64,000 nt of DNA. It comes from Sitta carolinensis. Taxonomy: Eukaryota; Chordata; Aves; Passeriformes; Sittidae. Made by a program: the position numbers and the translations under genes. Below are positions 22,501 through 25,500 of this stretch, piece by piece. The stretch covers positions 34,071,870 to 34,135,869 of the forward strand of contig JAVUNC010000006.1 in NCBI GenBank assembly GCA_032173965.1, given 5' to 3'. The notes under the pieces were generated by a model. The model was not told where the DNA came from, searched no databases, and saw nothing but the letters and a program-made list of their open reading frames with translations. Position 1 is the stretch's first letter. Every line of letters starts with the position of its first letter.

Positions 22501-25500
22501 GAAAGGTAAAGCTTTTACAGCTCAGTTGTGACAAACAGGAAATGAAATTCCATGAAACTGTGTGTAGAATGCCATTTTCCTTCCAATTAATTTTGAAGAC
22601 TTGTTTTGAAATGGTAGTGATTATGCAATCTGGACATGGCTGTCTTGGGAATCAAAACTGCTGGCAAGAAGTGCTTTTCTAAGATTGATTCTGGCAAGGG
22701 GTGGCTTTTAAGGCAGACAGTTGAGTTTTGCTTCAGTCTGACTGGCATCGTATTGTGGGAAATATCAGGCCACTATTAGACTCTCAGCAAGACCTCTGTG
22801 GTTCTTACTCTGCATACAGCTTGTGTATGGGATCAGTGTGCTCTGGAGATTTGCTTTTAAAAATTGTGCATCCTTGAAGGATGCCAAGAGACCTGACACT
22901 GTGGAAAAATCTGCTTTCTTTTCCGCTGTCAGGTTCTAACTCTCAGATCACACAGACTGGGTGAGCTTACAATGACACACAGGTTGTAAAGAGGCACCCC
23001 AATATTATCTTACTAATATAAGGCTTATTAGCCCCCAGTGCTATTTTTATTCTTTGGTGAAGTAGTTGTGCTTGTTTAAGGTGCTGTAAGATATTTAGTA
23101 GTCCTGATTTTTCAAAGCACTGATTGCTTTGAGCTCTGTAGGAGAAGAAAGGAGATTAAAAAATGCCACCCAGTCTTTGTGGAAATGGCCTTAGATGATA
23201 AAGTTCCTATCTTAGTGTGAAATCTACTGAAATTATGTCATAGCAGTGTCATTAATGGTATTTATGCTTCTCCTCAGGTTCCTTAGACCATATCCATGGT
23301 AGAACTGAGAGCCTCAGCAGTGAAGATACGCTGCCAAGCAGAGAGGCACCAGTCTTGCTCCAAGACACATATTCCCTTCACTCCGTTGCTGCTTTCTTAA
23401 ACCCTGGCAGCAGGCATGAGTCCTCCTCCCACAGGAATGGTTTGATGTCCTGTGATATACCTCAGAAGAGCAACCCATCTCAGCCTCATGAAGGCAGGCA
23501 GCGGTCTGCCTCACCTGGCAGTGAAATGGTAACTTTGGAAGAGTTCTTGGAAGAGAGCAACAGGCTGTCTCTACCAAGTGTAAGTAAATAGGGCTAGATG
23601 GCCCTTTTCAGATGTCAAAAAACTGTTCAAAGCTGATTTAGGAGGATGAGGGCATAGGGAAACAGAGAGAGACATGATCCTTGTTCATATACATGAGTAT
23701 TATCACATCTTGCAAAACAAATGAGGAAGTTTCAATAATTAAGGTAAAATTAGCTTTCATTAGCTTTCTGCTAATTTATTTTGGTTCATCAGCTATGGCA
23801 AGCCAGATAATTCATTGCAAGTACTGTATATTGGACTGCTGGGGCTTTTGGCTAGCAAATGATCGTGGTCAAGGTTTTGTATCATCAGTTCCAGGTATTT
23901 TTTATTTACAAGCTGGTAAGTTCTGTGTAATTTTCAGCTGCTAAGTCTATAATTAGGAATGAAACCTAGAATAGTTTTCAATTGAAGTATAAAATATGCA
24001 GTTGTTAAAACTGTCTCATAATCTAAAAATATCAGTGCATTTGAGAAAGACTATTTTTCTTGCAAAAGGAAATTTTTTATACTTTCACCATGTTTGTGTG
24101 TTGACTGATACTGCCCTATTGGTTCAGTGACTGCAAGAATATGTCGCTCATTGAAGTGCTTTTTTCAGGAACTAAATGTTTGTTTTCAAGATGGAATTTG
24201 TCTTTCACTGCTCAGACATGCTGTACAATAGTGAGGTGGTGCACTATTGAACAGGTTAACATCTTAGAAACAGTTCATTGATAGTGTAAGTGAACAGAGA
24301 TTTCTGTTTTATGAACACCTTGGTAAAAGTATTGAAATCAGCAGAGATGTGCCATTTCATGGGATCAGTAAATTCTGGTCCTTGAATTTTCACAGTAATG
24401 TTTAAATATACCTCCTACTCCTTCATTACCCTAAGTACAATTCTTAGCTTTCAGAGATGTTTAAAGTTATTACTTTTTTGTGTCTGTAACTACCTGACCA
24501 TGTCCATTTTCCTTCTTTCTGTCATCCTGTTCCTTTTCAGCATCGGCGCAGTTTAAATGAGAGTGAAATGATTTCATTACACCAATTTCTGTTAGAAGCT
24601 GATGCACTGTATCCCTCATGCTACTCCCCATGTCCTTCCATTCATCAGGAATATTCGCAGTCACTCGAATCGGTCCTCAGTGTTTCATGTCCTGACAGCG
24701 TGAGGCACAGAACAGGCAGGGGATATAGGAGATCTGCTTCATTCTATATCCCCAGGGTATCCATTGTTCTTACTATGAAGGCAACAGCTCCTGACTTACC
24801 ACAGCTTTTGCTAGCATATTAATACCTATAGAAGCATACTGTAACTCCTAGTTGTTACTTTAAAGGCTGGCAGATCATTTGCATTAATTGCTCCTGAAAT
24901 ATTTGCAGCGTTTGTTCATACACGTGTGCTTTTAGAGGACTCATCCTTCTGTAATGTTAATGTGCATAACAGCTGTTAGAATAAAGTTAAAAATAACCTT
25001 AACACTTTAACACTTAGTTGAGCTTAGAAATTTTTACACTGCACTATTACCATTGATAGTGTTTGCTTATGAAAAACAGGTATTTTGACTGGAAGAAATA
25101 TTTGGAACACTAGTGAAATAAGTGTATTAAGCTTTAGACATGCTCCCTAGAGAAGAGTAAAGAAGTAAATTTCATGAGCTTGTTCGGCATGTTGTTTGTA
25201 ATGACAGCATGTCCCTTAACTGTTCTGAGCATGCGTTTTACTAATAGTACAATGACTGCTGATTAAATATTGCCATTTTGGGATTGCATGGACCATCCCT
25301 GTGAAATACTCATTGTATATTTTCTTTTACTGTCAGCTTAATTGTCTGACTTGAAATCTGCAAGTTCATTGTAGGCAAACAATTTTTGTAATGATTTTTT
25401 GTACGTTTCATTGCATTGTACGTGCAGCTTTTAACATACATAGTATATTGGGTGGGGGAGGTGAAGGGAATTAATGGAGGAAGAATGAAACTTTTCTGTA

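Follow-up and report, generated by a model that had tools for sequence, protein, structure and literature searches.

The CCDC88C/DAPLE locus and its Girdin paralogue

The window, that is the whole 64,000-nt stretch of Sitta carolinensis DNA analysed here (positions 34071870-34135869 of its contig, in a genome of 1.03 Gb and 252 contigs), carries the 3' portion of a CCDC88 gene on its plus strand. Seventeen pieces from 532 to 26260, among them the candidate cassette described below, read as one frame with AG/GT at 16 of 16 inner junctions, whereby both outer ends of this gene model are arbitrary. The exon at 23278..23579 (plus strand) has AG/GT borders, keeps the frame of the gene model and is similar to the Girdin peptide in PDB 6mhf (E 2.4e-4). 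The known 16-residue GBA motif lies within this exon at 23520..23567 (plus strand), where the single-sequence structure model predicts a helix at residues 86-96 of the exon peptide, its only one of at least 4 residues. The last DAPLE exon (25964..26976, plus strand) matches the Girdin last exons; it ends in WYEYGCV and has one frame break at ~26218-26293. In PMC8042451, EYGCV is given as the PDZ-binding end of invertebrate GIV and is said to resemble that of Daple.

A second CCDC88 gene of the same genome, on contig C5, encodes GSPGSEVVTLQQFLEESNK as in the Girdin peptide of 6mhf, and its exons match most of the window exons; the C5 gene is thus Girdin (CCDC88A) and the window gene DAPLE (CCDC88C). 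The DAPLE frame shifts near 532 and between ~26218 and 26293, while Girdin stays in one frame at both places. Another partial copy of Girdin, 98-99% identical to the one on C5, was found on contig C230 (58.8 kb) and is either a haplotype copy or a duplication. Since the C230 copy reads through both places at which the C5 copy shifts frame, such breaks, including those in the coding exons of DAPLE, are probably assembly indels, and they were left unrepaired in the analysis.

Apart from the candidate cassette, the window contains a second exon-like stretch at 18726-18901, in the intron 17105-21060. Its border TTTAG/CC fits the phase of the preceding exon and opens 57 codons closed by a stop, its CpG content is raised, and AATAAATAAA follows at 18949. 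It is possibly an alternative last exon, which would yield a DAPLE without the GBA motif; it belongs to no Pfam family, and the search against Girdin gave no convincing match (best E 0.61). Further downstream, a decayed CR1-like reverse-transcriptase remnant occupies 45705-46195 (RVT_1 E 0.088, under the cut-off), the name CR1 being our assumption, and a single-exon open reading frame at 52762-53775 encodes a seven-transmembrane receptor of 337 aa (Pfam 7tm_1, E 8.2e-53), presumably GPR68-like, judging by the human neighbourhood. The window holds no Rfam family and no tRNA.

Borders, composition and codon usage of the candidate exon

The candidate exon sits in the 2.4-kb intron 3' of the GBA exon, 961 nt downstream of it. 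The sequence-only reading had drawn it at 24541..24756 on the plus strand; these coordinates, the length of 216 nt, the stop-free frame and the phase 0-0, which fits the phase of both flanking exons, were all reproduced. Its splice sites had been called good, which is true of the acceptor at 24541 (among the best 0.8% of the window AGs) but not of the donor: AGG/gtatcc at 24756 scores -2.1, the lowest of 16 (15 gene donors and the candidate), and 24% of the window GTs are equal or better. Judged by U1 RNA pairing, the same donor reaches -5.1, and three of the 15 gene donors are equally weak or weaker. An in-frame donor 57 nt upstream, AGC/GTGAGG at 24699, is better on both measures (0.3 vs -2.1; U1 -5.9 vs -5.1) and lies within the gene range (weakest gene donor -0.1; gene U1 pairing -4.3 to -12.2), all matrix scores being derived from general vertebrate frequencies rather than from bird-trained ones.

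The candidate exon contains six CpGs, all starting at 24544-24699, the last of which spans the donor at 24699. Elsewhere in this intron, 86 windows of 216 nt have three CpGs at most, and 20 of 912 such windows across all introns reach six. Because the donor at 24699 is the better one and all six CpGs start within its limits, the 159-nt form, 24541..24699 (plus strand, phase 0-0), is favoured, and it is the likelier form, compared with 24541-24756, if the exon is real.

When the 15 DAPLE introns were scanned for in-frame stretches of at least 150 nt with an acceptor score of at least 4 and a donor score of at least -2.2, only the two forms of the candidate exon passed. The identical open AG-GT scan of three other strands returned 2, 1 and 2 such stretches, so that an exon-like build by itself does not exceed chance; among 216-nt intron windows, 1.9% are stop-free. 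Codon scores lend the candidate exon no support. Its value of -0.010 bits per codon is the lowest of 17 exons (the others range from 0.075 to 0.509) in a test that is weak, its training set being mostly coiled coil, and 59 of 189 plus-strand non-exon stretches match or exceed it. The synonymous-codon score does not separate the candidate either way. Retrocopies were ruled out as a source of splicing evidence, as the cassette maps to a single genomic place (E ≤ 0.001).

The sequence-only reading had doubted that human DAPLE carries this exon, and published isoform lengths are in line with this doubt. The human Daple-CT antibody covers aa 1660-2028, with F1675 as the GBA Phe, and human Daple V2 has 552 aa with the corresponding F194 (PMC6702192). 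On these figures, 353 and 358 residues follow the GBA Phe in human and ~347 in the bird without the cassette (11 encoded by the GBA exon, ~336 by the last one); these human forms thus do not accommodate 53 or 72 extra residues. The open-licence literature searched, including GBA and Girdin papers and a review, gave no mention of a tandem, second or GBA-like motif, and the search for Daple splicing gave no Daple paper among the matches listed. As the search covered open-licence literature rather than bird annotation, public gene models may already contain a prediction of the exon.

The GBA-like motif and its origin

The 16-residue GBA-like motif of the candidate exon lies at 24562..24609 (plus strand). 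The peptide is present as the sequence-only reading had quoted it and aligns without a gap to the neighbouring GBA motif, with 8 of 16 residues identical, but the quoted extension past the final leucine can be aligned only with a gap. The claim that it conforms to the GBA consensus was upheld: I-S-L-H-Q-F-L fits hydrophobic-S/T-hydrophobic-x-D/E/Q-F-hydrophobic, the wording of the consensus being that of the same reading. Moreover, Leu13, Phe16 and Leu17 of the exon peptide fall on the positions of L1682, F1685 and L1686 of Girdin (GIV), so that all three residues are kept; they are named as important to G-protein binding in PMC7515630.

Scored against the 25-aa GBA core, the candidate reaches 41, a value that 4 of 20,000 shuffled versions of the exon attain; it ranks second among 2183 six-frame segments of the window, after the GBA exon itself (120) and ahead of the next segment (32). 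Against the whole 100-aa GBA exon its score is matched by 434 of 20,000 shuffles. The generic consensus is not enriched in the window, with four occurrences and a mean of 3.25 in 40 simulated sequences. A pattern tightened by Glu at +3 occurs twice, in both motifs, against a mean of 0.075 in 40 simulations; the sense frames of this intron would be expected to contain it 0.0014 times, a figure that flatters the match because the pattern was chosen after both motifs had been seen. The resemblance to the GBA motif probably, though not certainly, exceeds chance.

The single-sequence model of the exon peptide predicts one helix of at least 4 residues, at 7-23, lying over the motif with block mean pLDDT values of 71, 76 and 58, in a model of low overall confidence (mean pLDDT 54, with 41 of 72 residues below 50). 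The candidate helix is less amphipathic than those of the real motifs, with a moment of 0.19 compared to 0.28 and 0.29. The 26-aa motif piece has no PDB match at E ≤ 10, and the cassette belongs to no Pfam family. No relatives of it were found among the viral and prokaryote contigs searched; the conserved DAPLE coiled-coil exon, taken as a viral control, was likewise unmatched, which makes the viral negative uninformative.

Girdin of the same genome has no homologue of the candidate exon in the 1.2-kb intron after its GBA exon, and on this ground a common origin of the exon predating the split of the two genes was rejected. When the 72-aa cassette was compared with 1628 segments of the Girdin locus, a chance antisense stretch scored 46 and the real Girdin GBA motif 37, level with others. 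By tblastn at E ≤ 0.5 in ~84 kb of Girdin-related DNA, the cassette has a single match, the Girdin GBA motif (E 0.41), and when the 53-aa form is used (E ≤ 10, same DNA), that motif comes third of 11. A genome-wide search with the candidate at E ≤ 10 yielded, among the matches listed (5 candidates scored), the candidate itself and three other places, none of them the Girdin GBA motif. That the GBA exon was recently duplicated in tandem was also rejected, the DNA score of 69 being attained by 1005 of the 2000 simulations. For the final 75 nt of that exon, 132 of 2000 simulated sequences attain the score against the cassette DNA. In register, 26 of 48 nt are identical. If the exon is real, it would be either an old duplicate kept by selection on the protein or the seat of a motif made anew; independent origins of GBA motifs in unrelated proteins are reported in PMC10943482.

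Interpretation and comparison with known systems

We consider that the stretch 24541-24699, rather than 24541-24756, may be an alternatively used coding exon of CCDC88C/DAPLE which would add a second GBA-like, Gαi-docking helix, and put the probability of this at about 0.42. Overall it is a credible candidate for a tandem GBA-like module under alternative use: sequence, frame, splice-like borders and motif match are observed, while splicing, translation, Gαi binding and an effect on signalling are inferred.

A chance pseudo-exon, i.e., an unspliced open stretch of the intron in which 16 residues resemble the GBA motif by accident, is a serious possibility. It would account for the weak donor at 24756, the absent codon signal, the similar open AG-GT stretches seen on three further strands and the lack of enrichment of the generic consensus, as well as for DNA that is unrelated to the GBA exon (half of the simulated sequences, 1005 of 2000, doing as well) and missing from Girdin. 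It would, however, leave to accident a motif score reached by only 4 of 20,000 core shuffles, a tightened pattern expected 0.0014 times in the intron, though this pattern was fixed post hoc, and the strong acceptor together with the CpG content. Were the exon real but indifferent to Gαi, it could act as a phosphorylatable disordered spacer (with RRSLNE and RRSAS sites) altering the coupling of the GBA motif to the PDZ-binding end. Most of the peptide is indeed predicted to be unstructured (41 of 72 residues below pLDDT 50), but neither the motif match nor the predicted helix overlying it is explained in this way, and we regard such a role as rather unlikely.

Alternatively, the exon might be spliced in at 24541 and use no donor. 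Left unspliced at its 3' end, it would run within the open frame 24490-24819 to the in-frame stop at 24820..24822 (plus strand) and end past the AATAAA at 24980..24985 (plus strand), the sole one in this intron, so giving a protein with both motifs and no PDZ-binding end. Such an alternative last exon is quite improbable. The pairing of a strong acceptor with a weak donor, the stop codon and the AATAAA 157 nt past it are in line with it, and Girdin isoforms with and without the PDZ-binding end exist, according to PMC8042451; yet the CpGs end at the donor 24699, and the extension 24757-24819 (21 codons) has a synonymous-codon score of -0.138, the lowest among the pieces tested. Across the gene there are 0.94 AATAAA per kb, and one in 2.4 kb is therefore expected; being that frequent, the hexamer was ruled out as proof of a last exon.

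Returning to the exon as an added Gαi-docking module, its inclusion would give the protein two such helices in a row, with 27 residues from the Phe of the first to that of the GBA-like second one. Each could dock its Leu/Phe/Leu face in the switch II/α3 groove of GDP-bound Gαi, the site that GBA helices occupy in competition with Gβγ, as described in PMC10943482. For Daple, a Kd of 0.11 µM is reported (PMC4484057). At the spacing given, the pair of helices could hold two Gαi per DAPLE or rebind one, and inclusion would then result in higher avidity or two bound Gαi, with more Gβγ freed at the same site. A fuller version, in which DAPLE of birds (or more widely) has a splice-switchable tandem GBA with this spacing and with Ala at Phe+4 of the second helix, and inclusion both changes the stoichiometry and by-passes phosphorylation control, is doubtful. 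The proposed by-pass follows from Ala standing in place of Ser at Phe+4 of the second helix, the Ser four residues after Phe in the Girdin GBA motif being a Girdin phosphorylation site.

GBA motifs allow non-GPCR receptors to trigger G-protein signalling. If the candidate exon is used as proposed, splicing would set both the dose and the stoichiometry of the G-protein signal of DAPLE, a protein studied in planar polarity, cilia and hair cells, and a GBA motif would have been gained or duplicated within a gene already bearing one.

Compared to the GBA motifs of DAPLE and Girdin, the candidate has the same core consensus, the Leu/Phe/Leu face, the Glu three residues after Phe, SE before the core and a predicted helix. 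It differs from the DAPLE motif in having H-Q instead of E-E before Phe and L at +2, from the known GBA motifs in having A at +4 where these have S, and from both DAPLE and Girdin in sitting in a separate, putative exon, its binding being putative as well. Several Gαi-binding helices per chain are a feature of multi-GoLoco proteins, e.g., GPSM2/LGN; the likeness is one of principle only, and the GoLoco sequence differs. GoLoco motifs act as GDIs (PMC10943482). Another parallel is given by the Girdin forms GIV and GIV-L (PMC8042451), in which the 3' end of a CCDC88 gene is processed in alternative ways and the set of signalling modules carried by the protein likewise changes. In Girdin it is the PDZ-binding end that comes or goes, whereas the DAPLE candidate would gain an extra GBA-like helix.
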